Below, in pieces: positions 2,284 through 14,397 of a stretch of DNA of 64,000 nucleotides (the stretch's first letter is position 1; each line of letters begins with the position of its first letter). The position numbers and the translations under genes were made by a program. The notes below the pieces were generated by a model. That model was given only the letters and a program-made list of their open reading frames with translations, was not told the DNA's origin and searched no databases. This stretch comes from an uncultured Flavobacteriaceae bacterium (GTDB lineage: Bacteria > Bacteroidota > Bacteroidia > Flavobacteriales > Flavobacteriaceae): NCBI GenBank assembly GCA_947488435.1, contig CANKZG010000003.1:124001-188000 (forward strand). The letters are read 5' to 3'.

Positions 2284-2422
2284 AGGTTAAGTCGCATTTG
2301 GTCGAGAAGGTTAAGATTTGGGATCAGAAACTTTCTCTAGTGTAATTATTTAAACTTATAAAATTCTATTTATTTTTATACTTATATAATTCCCACCTAA
2401 TATTAATTTCGAACGTGAAAAT

Positions 2423-3544
2423 ATGAAAATTAGTGTTGTATGTACCTATTTATTCGTTGTAATGACATCGCTGTCATGTGCGCAAGAGCATAAAAATCAG
2501 GCAAAAGTCCAGGAAAACCAGGATTTCATCGTTGAAATGCATGTTGATAATTTAATTAACCCTTGGGGCATGGTTTTCCTTCCAAATGGGGGATTATTGA
2601 TTTCTGAAAAATCTGGGGAGTTACTCCTTTTTAAGGACGGAAAAAAAGTAGTTATTGGGAATTTACCTGAAATTTATGTCAGAGGTCAAGGGGGTTTTTT
2701 AGATTTGGAATTACATCCAGATTATGCCAATAATGGATGGTTGTATTTTTCATTTGCTTCTTCAGAAGGAGAAGGAAAAGGTGGAAATACGGCTATTATG
2801 AGAGCAAAGTTGAAAAACAACACTTTAGTAGAAAAACAATTGCTATACAAGGCAACTCCTAATACTACTAAAGTTCAACATTTTGGGTCTAGATTAGAAT
2901 TTGATAACGAAGGTTATTTATATTTTTCTATTGGAGATCGTGGAAATAGAGATGTAAATCCACAAGATATCACTAGAGATGGTGGAAAAATATACCGTAT
3001 TCTTGATGATGGTCGTATTCCCAATGACAATCCTTTTATTAATGAAAAAAATGCAAAGAAGGCTATTTTCAGTTATGGGCATCGCAATCCGCAGGGTTTG
3101 GTAAAACATCCGGAAACTGGAGCTATTTGGGATCATGAACATGGACCTCGCGGTGGCGACGAAATTAATATTTTAAAGAAGGGAAAAAATTACGGATGGC
3201 CTGTAGTCACGTATGGTATAAATTATAGCGGAACGCCCATTACCAATAAAACCAGTTTGGCCGGAATGGAACAGCCTTTGCACTATTGGGTTCCCTCAAT
3301 TGCCCCTAGCGGAATGACTTTTGTAACATCAAATAAATATCCCAATTGGAAAGGAAACTTATTGGTAGGCTCACTTTCTTTCCAATATTTGGAGCGTTTA
3401 ATTTTAGAAAATAAGAAGGTGGTTTATCGGGAAAAGTTGTTAGAAAACATGGGGCGTGTTCGTAATGTACGTCAAGGACCTGATGGCTATATTTATGTGG
3501 CTATTGAAAGAAAAGGAATTTACAAATTAATCCCTAAAGGGTGA
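2423..3544 (+). CDS. PQQ-dependent sugar dehydrogenase-like (GSDH) lipoprotein
   Basis: A 373-residue protein of the glucose/sorbosone dehydrogenase beta-propeller family. The N-terminus ends in a lipobox-like TSLSC (Cys19), so it is probably a lipoprotein facing the periplasm or cell surface. Family landmarks are visible in order: NPWGMVFLPNG (46-56), GQGGFLDLELHPDY (88-101), HFGSRLEFD (153-161, containing the position of the family's catalytic His), GDRG (171-174) and the YGHRNPQGL and HGPRGGDEIN blocks. By family it would oxidise an aldose or similar polyol with PQQ; the actual substrate is unknown, and many homologues are uncharacterised. It stands alone and converges on murQ with a 34-base gap. 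The ATG at 2423 gives the complete signal sequence. Confidence 0.88.
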   Translation: MKISVVCTYLFVVMTSLSCAQEHKNQAKVQENQDFIVEMHVDNLINPWGMVFLPNGGLLISEKSGELLLFKDGKKVVIGNLPEIYVRGQGGFLDLELHPDYANNGWLYFSFASSEGEGKGGNTAIMRAKLKNNTLVEKQLLYKATPNTTKVQHFGSRLEFDNEGYLYFSIGDRGNRDVNPQDITRDGGKIYRILDDGRIPNDNPFINEKNAKKAIFSYGHRNPQGLVKHPETGAIWDHEHGPRGGDEINILKKGKNYGWPVVTYGINYSGTPITNKTSLAGMEQPLHYWVPSIAPSGMTFVTSNKYPNWKGNLLVGSLSFQYLERLILENKKVVYREKLLENMGRVRNVRQGPDGYIYVAIERKGIYKLIPKG

Positions 3545-3578: not shown

Positions 3579-4394
3579 TTAACCGGTATAAGCATCTATT
3601 GCCTTCTTTACAGAACCGTGTTTTTTAAGTAAGGCTTGCGCTTTATCATAGTTCAGTCCCAATTCTTCTACCAAGTAACGGGTACCGCGATCTACTAATT
3701 TGGTATTACTTAATTGCATGTTTATCATTTTATTCCCTTTCACTCTTCCAACTTTAATCATCAATGCTGTAGAGATCATATTTAATACTAATTTTTGAGA
3801 TGTGCCACTTTTCATTCGAGTACTACCAGTGACAAACTCGGGACCTACATTTACTGCAATTTGTATGGTCGCTGCAAGTGCCAAAGGGGAACCTGGATTA
3901 TTCGTAATACAAGCCGTGAGAACGTCATTCGCATTGGCAGTTTCAATGCCACCAATAACATAAGGCGTTGTTCCTGAAGCGGCAATACCCACTACCGTAT
4001 CCAAACTATTAATATCATATGCCTGTAGGTCTTTCCAAGCCTGTTTGCTATTATCTTCCGCAAACTCCACCGCTTTTCGAATTGCAGTATCTCCACCTGC
4101 AATCAATCCTACTACCCGATCAAACGGCATTCCAAAAGTTGGTGGTATTTCCGATGCATCTAAAATTCCTAATCTACCACTTGTTCCTGCCCCTATATAA
4201 AAAAGCCGCCCCCCTTTAGTAAAACGAGGAATAATAGCATCAACAAGTTTTGTGATTTCGGGAATACACGCATGAACCGCCTCAGCCACTTTTTGATCTT
4301 CAGCATTCATCTTTTTTAAAAGGGAAAGCGTATCCATTTCTTCCAAATGGTCATAATGCGAAGGAGTTTCTGTAATTTTAATATAATCCGACAT
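3579..4394 (-). CDS. murQ: N-acetylmuramic acid 6-phosphate etherase
   Basis: MurQ cleaves the D-lactyl ether of MurNAc-6-phosphate to give GlcNAc-6-phosphate and D-lactate in the cytoplasm, the committed step in reusing wall-derived muramic acid. The 271-residue protein has the SIS sugar-phosphate fold: GAGTSGRLGILDASEIPPT (residues 68-86, with Glu82 matching the catalytic Glu of the family), IAASGTTPYVIGG and STRMKSGTSQKLVLN. It is slightly shorter than the enterobacterial protein (about 298 residues) but has all core motifs. The gene starts two bases after the regulator stop, so both are probably transcribed from the deoR promoter at 5179-5186. Its substrate is made by AnmK, encoded at the far end of the divergent operon. 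Confidence 0.96.
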   Translation of the reverse strand: MSDYIKITETPSHYDHLEEMDTLSLLKKMNAEDQKVAEAVHACIPEITKLVDAIIPRFTKGGRLFYIGAGTSGRLGILDASEIPPTFGMPFDRVVGLIAGGDTAIRKAVEFAEDNSKQAWKDLQAYDINSLDTVVGIAASGTTPYVIGGIETANANDVLTACITNNPGSPLALAATIQIAVNVGPEFVTGSTRMKSGTSQKLVLNMISTALMIKVGRVKGNKMINMQLSNTKLVDRGTRYLVEELGLNYDKAQALLKKHGSVKKAIDAYTG

Positions 4395-4396
4395 AT

Positions 4397-5146
4397 TTAT
4401 AGCAACTGTATATCCTGGTTTTTAAAGGAAATGAGAGCGTTATTATCAGGGTCTAGCTCTGTAATCATAGTGTTGATTGCACTTACGTCACAGGTTTTAT
4501 ACCGGTGATTTGAATTTAATTTTTCTGAAATTGATAAAAGAATTGTTTTTTTAGATGCCTTTATTACCGCCTTTTTCACCTGAACAATATCCCAATCAAA
4601 CTCTGTTAGACCGTATACGGCATCTACATAACCAGTGCCTATGAATCCGTAATCTACGGTAATTCCAGAAAGGTTATGCATAGCATTAGCTCCAATGGCA
4701 ATTTGTGCATCACGAGACAGCTGTCCGCCAATAAATATTACTTGAATATTAGGCTTTGTTAACAATTCCAGAGCAACTGGCAAACTTAAGGTAAAACAAG
4801 TAAGCTGCAACTCATGTGGTATTGCTCGTGCTAATTCTACACAAGTGGTTCCGCCATCGATGAGCAATACACTTCCTTCTTTTAATAAACTTACTGCTTT
4901 TTCGGCAATCTTGGTTTTCTCTTCAATTGCATAAATATTCTGATTCTTAGGATTAAAATTGACGAAGCCCAACGATATTGCCCCACCATGTACTTTTCGC
5001 AGTTTCTGCTCCGCATCCAATTCTTTTACATCGCGACGAATAGTATCAATAGAGACATCTAATGATTCAGCAATGTCGGTTAACAATACCCTATTGTGTA
5101 ATGCAACTTCATTTAATATAACACGAAAACGCTCCTCTTTTAACAT
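4397..5146 (-). CDS. DeoR/GlpR-family transcriptional regulator of the amino-sugar locus
   Basis: A 249-residue regulator with an N-terminal winged helix-turn-helix (about 6-57; LLTDIAESLDVSIDTIRRDV is the DeoR signature) and a C-terminal sugar-phosphate sensing domain (DGGTTCVELARAI, IGTGYVD, SISEKL). DeoR-family proteins normally repress sugar-catabolic operons and release DNA on binding a phosphorylated sugar. Its position between murQ and the divergent nagB operon makes it the likely local regulator, with GlcNAc-6-P, GlcN-6-P or MurNAc-6-P as plausible effectors (inference). The intergenic DNA holds an inverted repeat and two palindromes that could be its operator. The start at ATG 5146 is 32 bases after a TAnnTTTG element on the same strand. 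Confidence 0.92.
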   Translation of the reverse strand: MLKEERFRVILNEVALHNRVLLTDIAESLDVSIDTIRRDVKELDAEQKLRKVHGGAISLGFVNFNPKNQNIYAIEEKTKIAEKAVSLLKEGSVLLIDGGTTCVELARAIPHELQLTCFTLSLPVALELLTKPNIQVIFIGGQLSRDAQIAIGANAMHNLSGITVDYGFIGTGYVDAVYGLTEFDWDIVQVKKAVIKASKKTILLSISEKLNSNHRYKTCDVSAINTMITELDPDNNALISFKNQDIQLL

Positions 5147-5178
5147 GATTCAAAACCCTATATCTATATAAACGATTG

Positions 5179-5186
5179 CAAAGATA
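5179..5186 (-). promoter_or_regulatory. -7 promoter element for deoR-murQ
   Basis: Minus-strand TATCTTTG matches the Bacteroidota -7 consensus TAnnTTTG and lies 32 bases upstream of the deoR start. No clean TTG -33 element is seen at the usual distance; the left arm of the inverted repeat lies there instead. Confidence 0.6.
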
Positions 5187-5201
5187 CTAAAATAATACAG
5201 A

Positions 5202-5280
5202 TTGCTGTTTTTTACCGTTTCATGTTATTAAATTATTAAATATTGCAATTTATTGCAATATAAAAAGCAAAAAACAGCAA
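5202..5280. promoter_or_regulatory. Candidate operator: 12-bp inverted repeat between divergent promoters
   Basis: TTGCTGTTTTTT at 5202-5213 is repeated perfectly inverted as AAAAAACAGCAA at 5269-5280. The arms sit roughly 16-27 bases upstream of the two outward-facing TAnnTTTG elements (5186-5179 minus and 5299-5306 plus), where RNA polymerase would contact the -33 regions. This symmetry suggests that one regulator controls both transcription units, with the encoded DeoR protein as the obvious candidate. Binding is inferred. Confidence 0.55.
5242..5259. repeat. Two phased ATTGCAAT palindromes
   Basis: The perfect 8-bp palindrome ATTGCAAT occurs at 5242-5249 and again at 5252-5259, exactly 10 bp (one helical turn) apart, between the arms of the inverted repeat. 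Further ATTGCAAA-type sequences occur at 5174-5181 and 5335-5342. They may be part of the same operator system. Confidence 0.6.
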
Positions 5281-5298
5281 ATATATATATTTTTTGCA

Positions 5299-5306
5299 TA
5301 CATTTG
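5299..5306 (+). promoter_or_regulatory. -7 promoter element for the nagB-anmK operon
   Basis: TACATTTG matches TAnnTTTG and lies 39 bases upstream of the nagB ATG (5346). There is no good TTG -33 element at the expected place; the right arm of the inverted repeat lies there instead. Confidence 0.6.
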
Positions 5307-5345
5307 CAGTTCAAATAGATCATTATTACTTTAAAATTGCAAAAA

Positions 5346-7289
5346 ATGGTAACTGAGCAAAATACTTTAAGTATCCCAACGGATGAAGCCTCTCGAAAAT
5401 TTGAGAAAATTTCAACTGTGATACATGAAAATTCGGAACAGGCTTCACATTATGTCGCTACCGAAATTGTGAATCTAATTAAGCAACGACAAAAACAAGG
5501 TAAGAAACTGGTTTTAGGTTTGGCAACGGGTTCTACGCCAACAAAAGTTTACGATTACCTTGTTCAGTTTCATAGAGAAGGGTTGAGCTTCAAAAATGTA
5601 ATAACATTTAATTTGGATGAGTACTTTCCTATGCAACCGGATTCAATTCATAGTTACGTTCGTTTTATGAACGAACATCTTTTTGACCATATCGATATTC
5701 CTGCCGAAAATATAAATATCCCAAAAGGAGATCTTAGCAAGGAAGATGTTCGCGAGTTTTGTCAGAATTACGAACAAAAAATTAGCGATGCCGGAGGAAT
5801 AGATATTCAGGTACTCGGTATTGGTAGAACCGGACATATCGGTTTTAATGAACCAGGGTCTTCAATAAAAAGTAAAACCCGCTTGGTGCGTCTAGATCGT
5901 GTAACACGATTGGATGCTGCAAGTGATTTCTTTGGTTTAGAAAATGTTCCTTCCAGAGCTATAACCATGGGGGTGGGAACTATTATGGAGGCTAAACGCA
6001 TTATTTTAATGGCTTGGGGTGAAGGAAAAGCCAATATTATAAGACAGGCAGCTGAAGGACCCATCAGAGAATCTGTACCTGCTACCTTCCTGCAACAACA
6101 TACGAATTGTGATTTTATAATCGATCATGCCGCAAGTTCTGCACTTACCAGAGTATCAACGCCATGGTTAGTTAGCGATTGTGAATGGAATGAGAGTCTA
6201 ATTAAAAAAGCAACTATTTGGTTATCTGAAAAATTAGAAAAAGCGATCTTAAAACTTACCAATGAAGATTACAATGAGTATGGAATGGGGAGTCTTATTG
6301 CCGAAATTGGCTCTGCAGAACATATTAATTTAATTGTATTTAATCAATTGCAACGCACTATAACCGGTTGGCCTGGCGGAAAACCTCAAGCTGACGATAG
6401 TTCTAGACCCGAAAGACGTTATCCTTTTCCAAAAAAATCGCTCATTTTTAGCCCACATCCAGATGACGACGTAATTTCTATGGGAGGTACGCTGTTACGA
6501 TTGGTAGATCAGGGTCATGAAGTTCATGTAGCCTATCAAACTTCAGGAAATATTGCGGTATTTGATGACGAAGTAATACGCTTCTTAGATTTTGCTTTAG
6601 ATGCGCAACCGAATAACCAAGCGCTACAAGAACAGGTGAAAAAGGTTAGAAAATTTCTTCAGAACAAAAAACCAGGAGAAGTAGATAGCGCTGAGATACA
6701 AAAATTTAAAGGGCTTATTCGAAAGGGCGAGGCATTGTCGGCATGTAGATATTGTGGTGTTGATGAAAAAAACGCGCACTTTCAAAATCTACCTTTTTAT
6801 GAAACGGGTACTGTAAAGAAGAAACCGTATTCCGAAGCGGATGTAAAAATCACCTATGATTTGCTGCAAAAAGTTAAACCGCATCAAATCTTTGCTGCGG
6901 GAGATTTGTCGGATCCACATGGAACACACCGGGTATGTTTACAGGTTATTTATGCCGCTTTGGATCAATTTGTAGCTGAAAAAGCTGAATGGGTCAATGA
7001 CTGCTATGTGTGGCTATACCGTGGTGCATGGCAAGAATGGGATATTGCCGACATGGAAATGGCAGTACCTATTGGTCCAAAAGATATGACGCGAAAGAAA
7101 AATGCTATTTTTAAGCATCAATCTCAAAAGGATGCAGCCATGTTTCCTGGAAATGATGAGAGAGAGTTCTGGCAAAGGGCTGAACAGCGAAATACAGCGA
7201 CTGCTCGTAAATATAATGCCTTAGGGATGGCAGAATATGAAGCACTAGAAGGTTTTGTTCGTTATAAGTTTAATGTCACCTCAGAGTAA
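5346..7289 (+). CDS. nagB: Glucosamine-6-phosphate deaminase (NagB) fused to a PIG-L/LmbE deacetylase domain
   Basis: A 647-residue two-domain cytoplasmic protein. Residues about 20-270 are NagB/GlcN-6-P isomerase-like: LGLATGSTPTKVY (57-69), FNLDEYF (88-94, Asp91 aligned with the catalytic base) and GIGRTGHIGFNEP (158-170, His164 and Glu169 kept). The usual Asp two residues before that His is Thr162. Residues about 370-640 are PIG-L/LmbE-like with the zinc motif HPDDD and a late DPHGTHR. PIG-L proteins typically remove N-acetyl groups from GlcNAc compounds. NagB converts GlcN-6-P to fructose-6-P plus ammonia, so the fusion might join deacetylation and deamination (inference). This architecture is known in Bacteroidota, often annotated only as deaminase. 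ATG 5346 is preferred over a TTG nine bases upstream. First gene of the plus-strand operon. Confidence 0.9.
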   Translation: MVTEQNTLSIPTDEASRKFEKISTVIHENSEQASHYVATEIVNLIKQRQKQGKKLVLGLATGSTPTKVYDYLVQFHREGLSFKNVITFNLDEYFPMQPDSIHSYVRFMNEHLFDHIDIPAENINIPKGDLSKEDVREFCQNYEQKISDAGGIDIQVLGIGRTGHIGFNEPGSSIKSKTRLVRLDRVTRLDAASDFFGLENVPSRAITMGVGTIMEAKRIILMAWGEGKANIIRQAAEGPIRESVPATFLQQHTNCDFIIDHAASSALTRVSTPWLVSDCEWNESLIKKATIWLSEKLEKAILKLTNEDYNEYGMGSLIAEIGSAEHINLIVFNQLQRTITGWPGGKPQADDSSRPERRYPFPKKSLIFSPHPDDDVISMGGTLLRLVDQGHEVHVAYQTSGNIAVFDDEVIRFLDFALDAQPNNQALQEQVKKVRKFLQNKKPGEVDSAEIQKFKGLIRKGEALSACRYCGVDEKNAHFQNLPFYETGTVKKKPYSEADVKITYDLLQKVKPHQIFAAGDLSDPHGTHRVCLQVIYAALDQFVAEKAEWVNDCYVWLYRGAWQEWDIADMEMAVPIGPKDMTRKKNAIFKHQSQKDAAMFPGNDEREFWQRAEQRNTATARKYNALGMAEYEALEGFVRYKFNVTSE

Positions 7290-7307: not shown

Positions 7308-8249
7308 ATGTATATTGCCGCAGCACAATTTGAGCCCAAAGATGGAGATAAAGACTATAATCTAGCGATTATAGAAAAGCTTGCGAAAAAAGCAAAATCT
7401 GAAGGTGCAGATGTGATTAGTTTTCACGAAATGTGTGTTACGGCATATACATTTACTAAAGACTTAAGTCGTGAGGAATTGACTGCCTTAGCCGAACCTA
7501 TCCCGGATGGAAAAAGTATTCAAAAGCTTATTCAAATCGCAGCAAGCTCCGATATTCCTATTTTGGCAGGTTTAGTTGAAAAGGAAGGAGAGGCACTTTA
7601 CAACACCTATGTATGTGTATCTAAAGATGGCGTTTTGGCAAAATATCGGAAATTACATCCATTTATAAGTGATTATATGTCGCCCGGAAATGACTATGTG
7701 ATTTTTGATCTTTTTGGATGGAAATGTAGTATTTTAATTTGCTATGACAATAATATTATTGAAAATGTAAGGGCAGTAAGTATTTTAGGTGCTGAAGTTA
7801 TTTTTGCTCCTCATGTTACCGGATGTACCCCTTCTGCAATGCCTGGAAGAGGGTTTGTTGATCATTCATTTTGGGAAAACCGTGTAAAGAATCCCAAAGC
7901 ACTTCGTTCAGAGTTTGATGGACCAAAAGGACGCGAATGGCTTATGCGCTGGTTGCCGGCAAGAGCTTATGATAATGGTCTTTACTATATTTTTACCAAT
8001 CCCATAGGCTATGACGGGACACATTTAAAAAACGGCAACGCGATGATCATCGATCCTTACGGAGAAGTTTTATCGGAGATCAAAAGTTTTGACGCTTGTA
8101 TTACCCTTGCTAAACTCACTAAAGATAAAATCCCGTTGTCTGGAGGGTACCGCTATAAAAATGCTAGAAGACCAGAAATATACGGTCATATATTAGGTAA
8201 AATGCATCAGCCAAAACTCAAACCTATATGGATGACTACCAAAAATTAA
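7308..8249 (+). CDS. Carbon-nitrogen hydrolase (nitrilase superfamily amidase)
   Basis: A 313-residue nitrilase-superfamily enzyme. The catalytic Glu-Lys-Cys triad is visible: Glu41 in SFHEMCVTAY, Lys115 in KYRKLHP and Cys145 in ILICYDN. These enzymes hydrolyse nitriles, amides or carbamoyl groups; the substrate cannot be read from the sequence. No signal peptide is present, so it acts in the cytoplasm. It lies 18 bases after nagB and 24 before the GHL10 gene within one operon. That context suggests a role in handling wall-derived amides or amino-sugar derivatives, which is inference. Confidence 0.92.
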   Translation: MYIAAAQFEPKDGDKDYNLAIIEKLAKKAKSEGADVISFHEMCVTAYTFTKDLSREELTALAEPIPDGKSIQKLIQIAASSDIPILAGLVEKEGEALYNTYVCVSKDGVLAKYRKLHPFISDYMSPGNDYVIFDLFGWKCSILICYDNNIIENVRAVSILGAEVIFAPHVTGCTPSAMPGRGFVDHSFWENRVKNPKALRSEFDGPKGREWLMRWLPARAYDNGLYYIFTNPIGYDGTHLKNGNAMIIDPYGEVLSEIKSFDACITLAKLTKDKIPLSGGYRYKNARRPEIYGHILGKMHQPKLKPIWMTTKN

Positions 8250-8273
8250 ATCTTTTGTAAATTAACACCATAG

Positions 8274-9803
8274 ATGTCTACAAAAACCTATTTCACGTTA
8301 TTTTTTCTGGTTATAATGACATCATGTACGGTATTTACCAAAGCTATTCCACAACCTAAGCGAGAGTTTAGAGGGGTTTGGATTGCAACAGTCGCAAATA
8401 TTGATTGGCCAAAAAATGGTGCGGATGCAGTTGCAAAACAAAAAGAGGATTATCTCAATATTTTAGACTACTATAATAAATTACATTTTAATGCCGTAAT
8501 TGTTCAAATAAGAACCGCAGGAGATGCCTTTTACCCTTCAGCTTATGCACCTTGGTCTCGCTTTCTTACAGGTACTGAAGGGGAAGCAAAAGAAGACCAT
8601 CCGGACTTACTATCCTGGATGATCTTAGAGGCGCACAAACGGGGCTTTGAATTCCATGCCTGGCTTAATCCTTATCGGGCCACTTTTGATGAAAATATAG
8701 AAGTTTTAAGCGCTTCTCATGATTATTTTCAACATCCTGAATGGATGCTTAAATACGGCAAAAAAAATTACTACAACCCCGGTTTACCAAAAGTTCAAAA
8801 TCATTTAGCTGCAATAATTAAAGAAACCTTAGACAATTATGATATCGACGCCATTCATTTTGATGATTATTTTTATCCTTATAAAATTAAGGGAGAAATT
8901 TTTCAAGACTCTTTAGCCTATAGAACGTATGCAAGACCAAATCAATCCGTAGATAATTGGCGCAGAGCTAATATAGACTCTTTAGTAAAAAAAGTGCATG
9001 CAACTATAAAAAGTACAAAACCCTGGGTGCAATTTGGAATTAGTCCTTTTGGAGTTTGGAAGAATAATAATACCGACCCTAAAGGTTCTGATACCCGTGC
9101 AGGGCAAACTACCTACGAAGATTTATACGCAGATCCGATTTTATGGATGGAAAAAGGTTGGATAGATTATCTAGCACCTCAAATCTACTGGAGTTTAGAA
9201 TACCCTCCAGCATCCCATCGTAAGCTCATAAAATGGTGGGGAGGTCAACCCAAGTTAACGAATTTATATGTTGGGAATGGCGTTTATAAAATTCGAAATA
9301 ACGCAGATAAAGCTTGGAAGAAGAAAAAGGAAGTTCCAAATCAACTAAAGCTTTCAAGACAAACTTCAAACATAGACGGCAACATCTTTTTTAGTGCAAA
9401 ATCCCTAATGCAAGACCATAAGGACGTAGTAAATTATATGAAGCGTAAGTACTACAGGAACATTGCATTACCTCCAACTTCCATGGATGTACAGAATCAT
9501 GATCCTTTCAAAACCCTTATAACAGATTTTACGGAAACAAAAGAAGCCATAGCTTTTAATATTGATGCTTCAGATATCACAGTTCATTTTGCATTAATTT
9601 ATAGAATCCGGAAGAAGGATAACTCCGTAGTCCTTACCAACAAAAAACCCATTGCAAAGGTTTACTTAAATGCTGAAAACAAGCATCGCATATTGAAAAG
9701 AGAATTTCAAAACAAAAAGCATATTGCCTTAACTTTTGCAGACCGGTATGAAAGAGAAAGTGAGCCAATTGTAGTACATTTAAAATATGATCAGAAAAGA
9801 TAA
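8274..9803 (+). CDS. GHL10-family (DUF187, DigH-like) glycosyl hydrolase lipoprotein
   Basis: A 509-residue protein with a lipobox IMTSC (Cys18), so it is anchored in the envelope. The GHL10/DUF187 TIM-barrel spans roughly residues 30-370: REFRGVWIATVANIDWP near its start, then VQIRTAGDAFY, AWLNPYR, IHFDDYFYPY, FGISPFGVW and YLAPQIYWS. A C-terminal segment (about 400-509) looks like an FN3-type beta domain. The family includes E. coli DigH (formerly YddW), which cuts denuded peptidoglycan glycan strands. Placement between amino-sugar enzymes and an AmpG-like permease fits release of glycan fragments for recycling. Its 3' end overlaps the permease start by 17 bases, indicating translational coupling. 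Confidence 0.9.
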   Translation: MSTKTYFTLFFLVIMTSCTVFTKAIPQPKREFRGVWIATVANIDWPKNGADAVAKQKEDYLNILDYYNKLHFNAVIVQIRTAGDAFYPSAYAPWSRFLTGTEGEAKEDHPDLLSWMILEAHKRGFEFHAWLNPYRATFDENIEVLSASHDYFQHPEWMLKYGKKNYYNPGLPKVQNHLAAIIKETLDNYDIDAIHFDDYFYPYKIKGEIFQDSLAYRTYARPNQSVDNWRRANIDSLVKKVHATIKSTKPWVQFGISPFGVWKNNNTDPKGSDTRAGQTTYEDLYADPILWMEKGWIDYLAPQIYWSLEYPPASHRKLIKWWGGQPKLTNLYVGNGVYKIRNNADKAWKKKKEVPNQLKLSRQTSNIDGNIFFSAKSLMQDHKDVVNYMKRKYYRNIALPPTSMDVQNHDPFKTLITDFTETKEAIAFNIDASDITVHFALIYRIRKKDNSVVLTNKKPIAKVYLNAENKHRILKREFQNKKHIALTFADRYERESEPIVVHLKYDQKR

Positions 9804-11061
9804 AAATGCTTGGCTTTGGGTACCAATACTTTATTTTACTCAAGGAATACCGTACGTTATGGTAGTTACGGTATCCGTAATTATGTACAAACGCTTGGGG
9901 ATTAGCAATGAAGACATCGGTTTGTATACCAGTTGGTTGTATTTACCATGGGTGTTGAAACCTCTTTGGAGTCCTTTTGTTGATTTAAAAAGCACCAAAC
10001 GCAATTGGTTTTTGGGAATGCAACTTCTGATTGCGCTATCGTTATTGGGTGTTGGCCTTACATTACCTACGAATCAATTTTTTATTACCACCCTAGCCTG
10101 TTTTTGGATGGCAGCTTTTTCCTCCGCAACAAATGATATTGCATCAGACGGCTATTATATGATTGGATTAAGCGAAAAAAAACAGTCATTTTTCGTTGGA
10201 ATGCGAAGTACTTTTTACAGACTCGCTATGGTAACCGGAGAGGGATTGATTGTAATTTTTGCCGGTTATCTTGAAAACTATTATGGGGATAATTCAAAGG
10301 CATGGTCAATCACAATGATTTGTGCAGCTACGCTAATGTTATTACTTACAGTTTCCAATTTCTTCTCGACTCCGAAGTTTGAATCTGCTGATCCAACAGT
10401 TAAAGATAAACCAGGAAGTTTCGGAGAAGTTTTTGCCTCTTTTTTTAAGAAGAAAAATATTGGTATTGCACTGGCATTTATACTTTGTTATCGTTTGGGA
10501 GAGTCGCAATTGGTTAAAATGGCTGCCCCTTTCCTACTAGATCCAATAGAAAAAGGTGGTTTGGGATACAGCACAGAAGCTTTAGGTAAAATTTTTGGAA
10601 CTGTAGGAGTTATTATGCTATCCTTAGGCGGTATTCTCGGAGGAATTTTAATTTCGCGTGATGGACTCAAAAAATGGATGCTTCCCATGGTACTTTCATT
10701 AAATATTCCAAACGTACTTTATGCTATTTTGGCTTTTACCAAAACCACAAATATTATTGCTGTTGTAGCTACTGTTGCTTTTGAAAAATTCGGGTATGGA
10801 TTTGGTTTTGCAGCTTTTCTAATCTATTTGATATATATCGCTGAAGGAAAATCCAAAACCTCACATTATGCCATCGCTACCGGTTTTATGGGATTGGGTA
10901 TGATGCTCCCAGGAATGATTAGCGGTTATGTACAAAAATGGCTAGGCTATGATGGTTTTTTTATTTGGGTGGTAATAGCGGCATTACCTTCATTATTTCT
11001 GCTAAAATACATTACCTATCCCGCAGATTTTGGGAAGAAAATTAAAAAATCAGATGGTTAA
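9787..11061 (+). CDS. AmpG-like MFS permease (anhydromuropeptide importer candidate)
   Basis: A 424-residue, roughly 12-helix major facilitator protein. The opening YFTQGIPYVMVVTVSVIMY followed by LPWVLKPLWSPFVD is the pattern of the AmpG/acetyl-CoA transporter branch. AmpG imports GlcNAc-anhydroMurNAc peptides into the cytoplasm. The downstream NagZ-like and AnmK enzymes act on just such cargo, so the neighbourhood supports the assignment, though AmpG-like proteins can carry other substrates. The start at 9787 lies inside the GHL10 gene; the next in-frame Met would delete the first helix. The stop overlaps the nagZ start in ATGGTTAA. Confidence 0.85.
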   Translation: MIRKDKNAWLWVPILYFTQGIPYVMVVTVSVIMYKRLGISNEDIGLYTSWLYLPWVLKPLWSPFVDLKSTKRNWFLGMQLLIALSLLGVGLTLPTNQFFITTLACFWMAAFSSATNDIASDGYYMIGLSEKKQSFFVGMRSTFYRLAMVTGEGLIVIFAGYLENYYGDNSKAWSITMICAATLMLLLTVSNFFSTPKFESADPTVKDKPGSFGEVFASFFKKKNIGIALAFILCYRLGESQLVKMAAPFLLDPIEKGGLGYSTEALGKIFGTVGVIMLSLGGILGGILISRDGLKKWMLPMVLSLNIPNVLYAILAFTKTTNIIAVVATVAFEKFGYGFGFAAFLIYLIYIAEGKSKTSHYAIATGFMGLGMMLPGMISGYVQKWLGYDGFFIWVVIAALPSLFLLKYITYPADFGKKIKKSDG

Positions 11062-12643
11062 AATTCCTCAGTATAAGCAGGCAAGTGAGCTCCTAACGCA
11101 AAGCGAAAAAATAGGACAATTTTTTATGCCAGCCGCCTTCATTAATGATACCGAAGCAGAGATTCAGCATTTAGAACACCAAATTCGAACGCTAGGCATA
11201 GGGGGAATTTGTTTTTTTCATAGCCGAGCAAGTGCTGCCACCAATTTCGAAGGAAAGAAAAAAGTAATTTACAATGACAAAAGCCTTACAACACTCAAGC
11301 GTCTTATAAAACGCTACCAAGCTTGTGCCAGATATCCATTGCTTATTAGTATAGATGCAGAGTGGGGTCTTGCCATGCGTATTGAAGAAACACCACAATA
11401 CCCCTATGCAATTACCTTAGGTGCAATGAACCAGCAAGAGGAACTTATATATGAAGTTGGGAAGCGTATTGCCCAAGATTGTTTGCACGCAGGTATTCAT
11501 TGGAATTTTGCTCCTGTGGTGGATATTAACAGTAATCCTAATAATCCGGTCATTGGGTACCGCTCTTTTGGTTCTAATAAACACAAGGTGTTAGCTGCTT
11601 CAAAAGCATTTCTGAAAGGCGCTCAAAGTCAAGGAATTTTAAGTTGTATTAAACATTTTCCAGGACATGGAGACACAGCAACGGATTCACATCTTGGCAT
11701 GCCAATTATAGACAAATCAGAAATTGAAGTGTTTAACGAAGAACTTTTTCCATTTAAAGCACTTATTAAAGAGGGGGTTGAAGCGGTAATGGTAGGACAC
11801 CTTGCTATTCCTGCTTTAACAAATGGTGAAGCAATACCCGCAACAATATCAGCTCGTATTATCAAAGGAACACTTCGAAAAACATTAGGGTTTAAGGGTT
11901 TAGTGGTCTCTGACGCATTAAATATGCACGCAATTTCAAAGTTATTTCCTGAAAATGGAGATTTAGAATGGACTGCTTTCGATGCTGGAAATGATATCTT
12001 ATGTTTTACGGAAAATTGTGAAGCTGGAATACATAAAATCATGCAAAATGCTACACCTGCACAAATTGAAGATAGCTTTGAACGCGTATGGCGGTTAAAA
12101 GAAAAGATAAACAAACAGCAAAGACCTTCTGAACTCAGTAATGTTGCTGAAATTCAGAAGACCGTTGCCCTCAATAGTCTTACGCTATTAAAAGGAGATG
12201 AAACCACAGTTAATACCATTAGTTCTAAAAAATTTGTAGGCCTAAGCATTGGAAAAAATACCGAGAACTATTTCTTTCAAGAAATTAGCAACACCATAGA
12301 CTTTCCGAAATTACATTTTAATAATGAGAATGGTGATGCCTGTCAAGCAGCTATTACCTCCACAGATAATCTTGTAATTGCCTTATACCCAAGGCATATA
12401 AAACCAAACAACAAGTTTGGACTTAGTGATCAAGAAATTCAGTTTTTAAATAAAACTACAGCCACTAAAAATGTGATCCTATATCTATTTGGAAATCCAT
12501 ACTGTGTACAACATATCGGGATAGAAACTTTAGAAAGTTGCGTCTTAGTTTATCAAGATTTCAAGGCATTTCAGCAAAATGCTGCGCAACACTTTCTAGG
12601 CAAAATAAAAGCAAAAGGCATCGTGCCAGTAAATCTTATCTGA
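11054..12643 (+). CDS. nagZ: Beta-N-acetylhexosaminidase, glycoside hydrolase family 3 (NagZ-like)
   Basis: GH3 enzyme of 529 residues. The NagZ signature KHFPGHGDT (200-208) carries the His/Asp dyad used as acid-base in this subfamily, and the nucleophile Asp287 lies in LVVSDALNMHAI. No signal peptide is seen, consistent with a cytoplasmic enzyme cutting GlcNAc from GlcNAc-anhydroMurNAc. It is longer than proteobacterial NagZ (about 340 residues); the extra C-terminal part (about 375-529) resembles the second alpha/beta domain of two-domain GH3 enzymes. ATG 11054 shares ATGGTTAA with the permease stop. An upstream in-frame ATG (11030) would add eight basic residues and a longer overlap and is less likely. 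Confidence 0.93.
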   Translation: MVKIPQYKQASELLTQSEKIGQFFMPAAFINDTEAEIQHLEHQIRTLGIGGICFFHSRASAATNFEGKKKVIYNDKSLTTLKRLIKRYQACARYPLLISIDAEWGLAMRIEETPQYPYAITLGAMNQQEELIYEVGKRIAQDCLHAGIHWNFAPVVDINSNPNNPVIGYRSFGSNKHKVLAASKAFLKGAQSQGILSCIKHFPGHGDTATDSHLGMPIIDKSEIEVFNEELFPFKALIKEGVEAVMVGHLAIPALTNGEAIPATISARIIKGTLRKTLGFKGLVVSDALNMHAISKLFPENGDLEWTAFDAGNDILCFTENCEAGIHKIMQNATPAQIEDSFERVWRLKEKINKQQRPSELSNVAEIQKTVALNSLTLLKGDETTVNTISSKKFVGLSIGKNTENYFFQEISNTIDFPKLHFNNENGDACQAAITSTDNLVIALYPRHIKPNNKFGLSDQEIQFLNKTTATKNVILYLFGNPYCVQHIGIETLESCVLVYQDFKAFQQNAAQHFLGKIKAKGIVPVNLI

Positions 12644-12656
12644 AAGTACTCAATAT

Positions 12657-13334
12657 ATGGAAGATCCTATCTTAAAAACATGGCGAATTAATGCAAAAGA
12701 ATGGGTTTCCGCAATTCAAAACAACACCATTTCCTCTCGAAAATATACAAACCAAGCAATTGTAGACACCATCCAAACTTTACCCTTAAAAAGAATTCTA
12801 GATGTTGGTTGCGGAGAAGGGTGGCTTGTTAGAGCTATTTCAGCAATGAAAAAAACTGCTGTTGGTATCGATGCTACGGCTGATTTACTTAAGGCAGCTA
12901 GGCAAGAAGGGCCTGAATCTTACCATCTTCTAGATTACTCCCAAATAAGTTTAAGTACTTCTATAAAAGAAGAACCTTTTGATGGAGTTATATTTAACTT
13001 TTCTTTATATCAAGAAAAAGGATTGGTCACACTTTTTAACGCTTTAAAGCAGCATATTTCACCATCAGGATATTTCATTATTCAAACTTTACATCCATTT
13101 TTTTTGATCCAGCATGAAAAAGGGTATCAAAGTCAATGGCTTCAGGATTCCTGGAAAGGGCTTTCAGGAAATTTTAAAGATGGACACCCGTGGTATGCTA
13201 GAGTTTTAAGTGATTGGATTTTAACTTTTAATCAAAGTAAGTTGCAGATTCTTGAAGTAAAAGAAATATTAAATCAAAATCAGGAACCCGTTTCCATTAT
13301 ATTTATTTTAAAAACACCTTATGAAAAAGTATAA
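12657..13334 (+). CDS. Class I SAM-dependent methyltransferase
   Basis: A 225-residue methyltransferase with SAM-binding motif I LDVGCGEGW (48-56), an acidic motif II (AVGIDATADLL) and LHPFF further on. Substrate unknown. It sits 13 bases after nagZ, and its end overlaps anmK by 14 bases, so it is translated together with recycling enzymes. It could modify a metabolite or act on an unrelated target; nothing in the sequence decides this. Confidence 0.9.
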   Translation: MEDPILKTWRINAKEWVSAIQNNTISSRKYTNQAIVDTIQTLPLKRILDVGCGEGWLVRAISAMKKTAVGIDATADLLKAARQEGPESYHLLDYSQISLSTSIKEEPFDGVIFNFSLYQEKGLVTLFNALKQHISPSGYFIIQTLHPFFLIQHEKGYQSQWLQDSWKGLSGNFKDGHPWYARVLSDWILTFNQSKLQILEVKEILNQNQEPVSIIFILKTPYEKV

Positions 13335-14397
13335 AGTAATCGGCTTAATGTCCGGAACTTCTCTGGACGGATTAGATTTAGTGCATTGTACCATTTGGAA
13401 AAAATTAAATCAATGGCAATTTGAAATTAATGCTACTAAATCCGTCGATTATGATGCTGCAATGACAGCACAATTAAAGCATGCTATTACCCTGCCATCT
13501 GAGAAGCTTTTACAATTGCATAACTCCTATGGCCAATGGTTGGGAGAACAGGTATCTTATTTTGTAGAAGAACAGCAATTGGAAGTCGATCTTATTGCAA
13601 GTCATGGCCATACGGTACACCATCAACCGGATAAGGGTATTACGCTTCAAATTGGCTCTGGACAACATTTAGCCAACAATTGCAAGAAAAAAGTTGTTTG
13701 TGATTTTAGAACCAACGACGTTGCCTTGGGTGGGCAGGGTGCTCCATTAGTTCCCATTGGAGATCAGCTGTTTTTTGGTTCTCATGATTTTTGCTTGAAC
13801 TTGGGAGGAATTAGTAATGTATCTTTCGATCATCAAGGCACTCGAAAAGCCTATGATATTGGATTGGCAAACATGATTTTAAATCATATTAGCTCAAAAA
13901 TAAATTTAAAATTTGATGCCGGCGGAGCAATGGCTTCACGTGGAAAGTTGAATACTAAAATGTTGGAACAACTAAATGCGTTGGACTACTATCGTTTGGA
14001 TTTTCCAAAATCTACCGGTTATGAATGGTTTACGGAAAAGGTCATCCCCATAGTAGATGCAACCGAAGATACTATTGAGAATCTGTTACATACTAGCATT
14101 CATCATATTTGTGAACAAATCGCAATTCAAATTACAAAAAATAGCTCTCGAAATAACGCTACCCTATGGATTACCGGGGGTGGTGCACTAAATCACTTTT
14201 TAATTGATATGCTGCAGGAAAAGTTAGGTACAGTTGCTCTTGTAACCCTCCCCTCACCTACCCTAATAGCATTTAAAGAAGCTTTGGTCTTTGCACTGAT
14301 GGGGGTATTGCGTATTGAACAAGAAACTAATGTTTTAGCTTCTGTAACGGGTGCAACTTCGGATTCTTCTAGTGGAGTAGTTTATTTACCGCTTTAG
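13321..14397 (+). CDS. anmK: Anhydro-N-acetylmuramic acid kinase
   Basis: AnmK opens the 1,6-anhydro ring of anhydroMurNAc and phosphorylates it with ATP, giving MurNAc-6-phosphate for MurQ. The 358-residue protein has the ASKHA kinase layout: phosphate-1 motif IGLMSGTSLDGLDL (7-20), ASHGHTVHHQP, CDFRTNDVALGGQGAPLVP with its catalytic Asp, LNLGGISN and a late WITGGGALN. Length and motifs match the family. It is the last gene of the operon; a new promoter follows before udk. Confidence 0.97.
   Translation: MKKYKVIGLMSGTSLDGLDLVHCTIWKKLNQWQFEINATKSVDYDAAMTAQLKHAITLPSEKLLQLHNSYGQWLGEQVSYFVEEQQLEVDLIASHGHTVHHQPDKGITLQIGSGQHLANNCKKKVVCDFRTNDVALGGQGAPLVPIGDQLFFGSHDFCLNLGGISNVSFDHQGTRKAYDIGLANMILNHISSKINLKFDAGGAMASRGKLNTKMLEQLNALDYYRLDFPKSTGYEWFTEKVIPIVDATEDTIENLLHTSIHHICEQIAIQITKNSSRNNATLWITGGGALNHFLIDMLQEKLGTVALVTLPSPTLIAFKEALVFALMGVLRIEQETNVLASVTGATSDSSSGVVYLPL

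Follow-up and report, generated by a model that had tools for sequence, protein, structure and literature searches.

We propose that the PIG-L/LmbE half of a NagB-PIG-L fusion protein is a GlcNAc-6-P deacetylase non-orthologous to NagA and that the fusion as a whole would make fructose-6-P, a reading to which we assign a probability of roughly 0.7. The fusion gene lies in a stretch of 64,000 nucleotides from an uncultured marine Flavobacteriaceae bacterium, hereafter the window, which is the whole stretch of DNA that was analyzed (Table 1). In the putative mechanism, the PIG-L/LmbE domain would act as a single-metal hydrolase that converts GlcNAc-6-P to GlcN-6-P and acetate in place of the unrelated NagA, and the N-terminal NagB domain would next convert GlcN-6-P to fructose-6-P and ammonia. 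In this operon, the substrate would derive from anhydro-muropeptides via AmpG, the NagZ-like GH3 enzyme, AnmK and MurQ; in other lineages, import of GlcNAc or of chitin products may provide it (GH20, SusC, NagP, NagX and ROK kinase). Genomic context and co-occurrence suggest the GlcNAc-6-P deacetylase function of the PIG-L half, and we likewise infer what each half acts on, which step comes first and any channelling.

Table 1. Features of the window, and members of the divergent ~790-aa family in other loci
Feature	Position	Strand	Remarks
murQ, N-acetylmuramic acid 6-phosphate etherase	3579..4394	-	NF003915 370.4 bits (cut-off 168); TIGR00274 299.0 bits, just under cut-off 302
DeoR-family regulator	4397..5146	-	Pfam
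Divergent intergenic region, deoR/fusion	5147..5345	.	repeated ATTGCAAT
NagB-PIG-L fusion gene, 647 aa	5346..7289	+	ATG 5346, stop 7289; alternative TTG start 5337, the earliest possible start of the ORF
NagB (Glucosamine_iso) domain, residues 29-252	5430..6101	+	Pfam 80.2 bits, cut-off 27
FNLDEY motif with catalytic D91	5607..5624	+	D in 65/67 relatives
GRTGHIGFNEPG motif with H164, E169, T162	5823..5858	+	H164 66/67, E169 67/67
Conserved inter-domain linker, residues 269-360	6150..6425	+	GWPGGKP invariant, 67 relatives
GWPGGKP linker motif, residues 341-347	6366-6386	+	invariant despite model pLDDT about 65-67 nearby
PIG-L/LmbE domain, residues 366-538	6441..6959	+	Pfam PF02585 64.8 bits, gathering score 28.2
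HPDDD metal and base motif, residues 371-375	6456..6470	+	67/67 relatives
DPHGTHR motif, residues 523-529, H528 ligand	6912..6932	+	H528 67/67, H525 65/67
Carbon-nitrogen hydrolase (nitrilase superfamily)	7308..8249	+	Pfam
GHL10 glycosyl hydrolase-like protein	8274..9803	+	Pfam
AmpG-like muropeptide MFS permease	9787..11061	+	Pfam; TIGR00901 192.9 bits, under cut-off 350
GH3 NagZ-like beta-N-acetylglucosaminidase	11030..12643	+	Pfam; NF003740 158.5 bits, under cut-off 207
Methyltransferase, in the operon	12657..13334	+	Pfam
anmK, anhydro-N-acetylmuramic acid kinase	13321..14397	+	NF007144 511.2 bits, above cut-off 436
~790-aa family member (among others)	L187:541-2904	-	
~790-aa family member (among others)	L190:9337-11712	+	
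~790-aa family member (among others)	L192:7419-9764	-	

Architecture, catalytic residues and predicted fold

An earlier note on this DNA had described a NagB-like N-terminal half and a PIG-L/LmbE C-terminal half in one polypeptide, with the motifs HPDDD and DPHGTHR. Both domains scored above their Pfam gathering scores and both motifs were found in the PIG-L half as it had described; the minus strand carries many stops across 5346-7289. The note had also held the architecture to be known, and the fusion is indeed a full-length member of NCBIfam NF002557 (score 1049.3 bits, cut-off 384; its residues 12-642 aligned to profile positions 19-652 of 653), so the architecture was already catalogued. 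The match is not a chance one, since relatives scored above the NF002557 cut-off in 121 of 296 genomes. The fusion also exceeded the cut-off of the nagB model TIGR00502 (262.7 against 236.9 bits), and no NagA model was among its NCBIfam matches at E<=0.001.

Residue conservation was read from an alignment of 67 rows, comprising 60 of 80 named loci, six sequences retrieved in the genome search, and the protein of the window itself; the omitted rows were two loci with an in-frame stop and others left out as a precaution for the same reason or as close duplicates. In the NagB half, D91, H164 and E169 are all present, together with phosphate-binding R179 and K228 equivalents. We take D91, H164 and E169 to be the equivalents of Asp72, H143 and E148 of the E. 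coli enzyme, and T162 to sit at the position of Asp141. This last replacement speaks against our reading. However, Asn occupies that position in the solved deaminase NagB of Bacillus subtilis, so Asp is not a defining requirement and T162 is not shown to be the sign of a dead deaminase; among the 67 relatives, the position is occupied by T in 61, N in four, S in one and V in one. In the PIG-L half, the metal ligands H371, D374 and H528 and the base D373 are invariant in all 67 relatives. Invariant columns amount to 71 of 283 in this half, 34 of 247 in the NagB half and 16 of 92 in the linker, where the GWPGGKP motif may have a lid or interface role.

An AlphaFold2 model of the fusion built on the 67-row alignment (mean pLDDT 87.5, pTM 0.79) matched solved NagB structures over its N-terminal half (Z 38). 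The C-terminal half was predicted to have an LmbE-like fold, with BshB and the Pyrococcus diacetylchitobiose deacetylase as the best matches (Z 20.7) and MshB at 18.6. The substrates of these nearest solved PIG-L relatives are unphosphorylated GlcNAc compounds, which counts against a sugar phosphate as the substrate here. The predicted fold does not by itself settle the substrate of the PIG-L half.

Gene neighborhood and the source genome

The fusion is the first gene of an operon whose plus-strand genes at 7308-14397 are closely spaced or overlapping downstream of it, and murQ is divergent. The repeat ATTGCAAT occurs twice, 10 bp apart, at 5240-5260 in the divergent intergenic region, and may be an operator. 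The carbon-nitrogen hydrolase gene (7308-8249) sits within the recycling operon, and the enzyme has no known role in muropeptide breakdown. The chemistry of AmpG, NagZ, AnmK and MurQ is that of peptidoglycan recycling, ending at GlcNAc-6-P. Because the MurQ product is already phosphorylated, the deacetylase required here must accept a 6-phosphate.

This setting bears on the most serious rival, in which the substrate of the PIG-L half carries no phosphate (free GlcNAc, chitobiose or a muropeptide) and a kinase acts after deacetylation to make GlcN-6-P for the NagB half. This rival agrees with the closest solved folds, the archaeal diacetylchitobiose deacetylase and BshB, and NagZ would supply free intracellular GlcNAc; in addition, a ROK-family kinase is encoded within 6 kb of the fusion in eight of the best 80 loci, on the same strand in seven. 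However, it would leave unused the GlcNAc-6-P produced by MurQ, which is present in 120 of the 121 fusion genomes and is encoded beside the fusion here, and the operon of the window showed no GlcNAc or GlcN kinase. We regard this rival as unlikely, and retain deacetylation of GlcNAc-6-P as the preferred reading.

The 80 named loci are the best 80 of 556 confirmed relatives, so neighborhood counts lean toward close relatives. Within 6 kb of the fusion, these best 80 of 556 loci contained MurQ in 12, DeoR in 12, AnmK in 16, GHL10 in 14, NagX in 14, GH3 in 11, AmpG in 8, ROK kinase in 8, NagP in 6, GH20 in 6 and a SusC-like protein in 21; neighbor labels were checked on representatives, and the NagX, NagP and ROK matches lie under equivalog cut-offs. 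Among 20 further fusion stretches, mostly from multi-copy genomes, NagP, GH20, SusC or ROK lay alongside in 12 and not in 8.

The earlier note had seen no nagA in the window and had called for a search of the whole genome. In the source assembly (99.98% complete, 26 contigs), that absence extends to the entire genome: the nagA profile TIGR00221 gave 18 weak matches, the best of which reached 31.8 bits where the cut-off is 225.65. This rules out the limited extent of the window as the reason why nagA was not seen. Likewise, no separate nagB was found in the whole genome, and the only other NagB-like gene is a 6-phosphogluconolactonase adjoining a G6PDH-like gene. With nagA and a separate nagB both absent, the genome has one obvious candidate gene for deacetylation and deamination after MurQ.

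Distribution of the fusion, its variants and nagA

The fusion, nagA and MurQ were looked for in a phylum sample of 296 evenly drawn genomes, each at least 90% complete. By best NF002557 score, 121 genomes carry the fusion, 26 a separate NagB only and 149 neither (other). MurQ was found in 120/121, 26/26 and 65/149 of these classes, respectively (91 of 175 non-fusion genomes overall), and nagA at E<=1e-25 in 29/121, 17/26 and 4/149; every nagA-positive genome (50/50) has MurQ. Scores above the nagA cut-off were reached in 23 of 121 fusion genomes compared with 16 of the 26 in the separate-NagB class. These genome counts ignore kinship; the genus tally, in which nagA was found in 21 of 64 fusion genera compared with 15 of 23 separate-NagB genera (p 0.013), is the sole correction and is weaker. 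The suggestion that the fusion goes with absence of nagA was borne out in that nagA is scarcer in fusion genomes, but its presence in 29 fusion genomes means that the two are not mutually exclusive. Moreover, 61 MurQ-positive genomes (e.g., G029, G053 and G226) lack the fusion, a separate NagB and nagA alike, so the absence of nagA alone is no proof of replacement.

Among ten named genomes, seven had no nagA match at 1e-10 (JC017, Muriicola, Robiginitalea, Muricauda, Lentiprolixibacter, Christiangramia and Pontibacter), two had nagA above the cut-off (Pedobacter ghigonis and Hymenobacter cavernae) and Adhaeretor had weak nagA matches. The control genome of Bacteroides ihuae, probably the one control above the fusion cut-off, matched the fusion profile and MurQ but not nagA at 1e-10.

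The nagA neighborhoods of 20 of the 29 nagA-positive fusion genomes were clustered. In some fusion genomes (loci L081 and L216), nagA adjoins the fusion. In five of the 20 (L203, L204, L205, L206 and L209), all from one family of fusion-bearing genomes, nagA lies between translation-like genes, which we take to be rpsB-tsf and pyrH-frr; this is apparently an old housekeeping position, a setting that is conserved yet odd for a catabolic nagA. Two recurrent neighbor clusters were found, one without a Pfam match, and the idea that nagA serves another (GalNAc) pathway in genomes with the fusion gained no support but may still hold.

On the sequence evidence, the strongest argument for our reading is the set of fusions with a decayed NagB half that occur alongside a separate NagB and without nagA. 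Two genomes of one genus (G230 and G238) encode a fusion with D91Y, T162V and H164N and intact PIG-L motifs; both also encode a separate canonical 270-aa NagB with NMDEY and PDGHIAFNEP, MurQ is present and nagA is absent. The fusion of Marinilabiliaceae JC017 (locus L104) carries D91M and keeps the deacetylase residues, and this genome has no nagA; its separate NagB-like match scored 238.5 bits and includes one stop. D91 is lost in just two of the 67 relatives, namely L104 and L034 (from G230), which also have the two most diverged NagB halves of the 67. One point counts against our reading: in L034, with its degenerate NagB half, the PIG-L half is rather diverged too, the second lowest of 67. 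A split version was found in G219, in which nagB (263 aa) is followed 23 bp on by a PIG-L gene (286 aa; L186:1456-2316 and 2340-3131, minus strand), with MurQ present and nagA absent. The decayed and split versions together suggest a separate task for the PIG-L half within the same pathway, with the deaminase half as the one that can be replaced.

These variants weigh on a second rival, which limits the fusion to GlcN-6-P deamination: its PIG-L half would have a regulatory role or act elsewhere, and GlcNAc-6-P would be deacetylated by an unrecognized amidohydrolase. The weak nagA-profile matches in the source genome could hide such an enzyme, and the 61 MurQ-positive genomes without any recognized NagA, NagB or fusion also favor it. 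However, the metal and base residues of the PIG-L half are invariant, and in G230, G238 and L104, where a separate NagB is present, decay struck the deaminase half, which is the opposite of what this rival predicts; we consider it improbable. The least credible alternative assigns the PIG-L half to deacetylation in the synthesis of bacillithiol or another product, with co-regulation as the sole purpose of the fusion. It draws on a shared fold and weak BshB1 similarity, but the fusion scored far under the cut-off of TIGR04001 (26.6 against 182.5 bits), its neighbors are peptidoglycan and GlcNAc catabolic genes, and a true BshB1 (299.3 bits) is present elsewhere in the genome, on which ground we reject the fusion as a mere supply of bacillithiol deacetylation. 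Apart from the fusion and BshB1, the genome has a third PIG-L gene (L135, G000:C2:40371-40778), an 849-aa open frame that extends past the locus end.

Low-threshold scans of 57 non-fusion genomes (24 + 33) of the 296 revealed a divergent protein of ~790 aa in 27 of the 57. It aligns with the fusion over both halves (hhalign probability 100, E 4e-50), and the one member tested had no Pfam match. Its NagB half keeps D and H and has lost the equivalent of E169 (the E148 equivalent); the motifs of its PIG-L half are HHDD and GPDTH. The gene adjoins MurQ in L189 and is near MurQ in L190, and elsewhere it lies in AmpG/GH18/GH94/NagB clusters. The protein occurred in seven of nine separate-NagB genomes without nagA compared with seven of 17 with nagA, which is not significant (p 0.11), and ten of the 27 genomes with this family also have nagA, so the family is not tied to nagA loss.

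Overall, the earlier idea that the fusion could replace NagA holds in part: co-occurrence and the decayed NagB halves speak for it, whereas the 29 nagA-positive fusion genomes and the 61 MurQ-positive genomes without all three genes speak against it. On balance, we incline slightly toward a phylum-scale replacement, in which the usual GlcNAc-6-P deacetylase of Bacteroidota and some neighbors would be a NagB-tied PIG-L/LmbE protein and not NagA, with channelling possible. The forms it may plausibly take are the 650-aa fusion, split adjacent genes, decayed-deaminase fusions with a separate NagB and the ~790-aa family beside MurQ.

Implications and comparison with known systems

In a literature search that left preprints and most subscription journals outside its scope, the NagB-PIG-L fusion was nowhere named as a deacetylase and no functional test was found. 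BT0258 of Bacteroides thetaiotaomicron is presumably a member of the fusion family. One report lists BT0258 simply as a glucosamine-6-phosphate deaminase (PMC10434189). A review assigns "NagA and NagB" to Bacteroidetes and names no genes there (PMC10017367). In a third paper, five bacteria use NagX for glucosamine and NagA is implicated in four of them, the fifth being the Bacteroidota member Echinicola (PMC9007349, Fig. 3E); this pattern is in line with our reading, although not direct.

If our reading is true, it would supply a step now missing from the pathways for GlcNAc, chitin and sialic acid and for peptidoglycan recycling across a whole phylum, including gut Bacteroides, and would correct genome-based metabolic models that score such genomes as lacking GlcNAc-6-P deacetylation. 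PIG-L/LmbE enzymes would gain a new type of substrate, a sugar phosphate, and the fusion would be a natural bifunctional enzyme suited to channelling tests. Through the versions that are split or have a decayed half, NagA replacement is open to direct tests.

Compared with known systems, the fusion is identical in architecture to the catalogued family NF002557 (PRK02122, "glucosamine-6-phosphate deaminase-like protein"), whose name covers the deaminase half only and is silent on deacetylase function. The monomeric-type NagB of B. subtilis (PDB 2bkv/2bkx) shares ~41% identity with the fusion (rmsd 1.1 A over 241 residues) and the motif GIGRxGHIGFNEPG; unlike the fusion, it has N at the position of T162 and no PIG-L domain. 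The archaeal diacetylchitobiose deacetylase (Dac), a PIG-L/LmbE protein, is one of the top fold matches for the C-terminal half (~25% identity, Z ~20) but lacks a NagB domain. Dac is a stand-alone enzyme that acts on GlcNAc-type substrates, namely unphosphorylated GlcNAc or chitobiose, in chitin breakdown. The bacillithiol deacetylases BshB1 and BshB2 have the LmbE-like fold and the metal motif in common with the PIG-L half. Finally, NagA (TIGR00221), a member of the amidohydrolase superfamily, is unrelated to the fusion in sequence, but the fusion would, if our reading is right, perform the same GlcNAc-6-P deacetylase step ahead of NagB.
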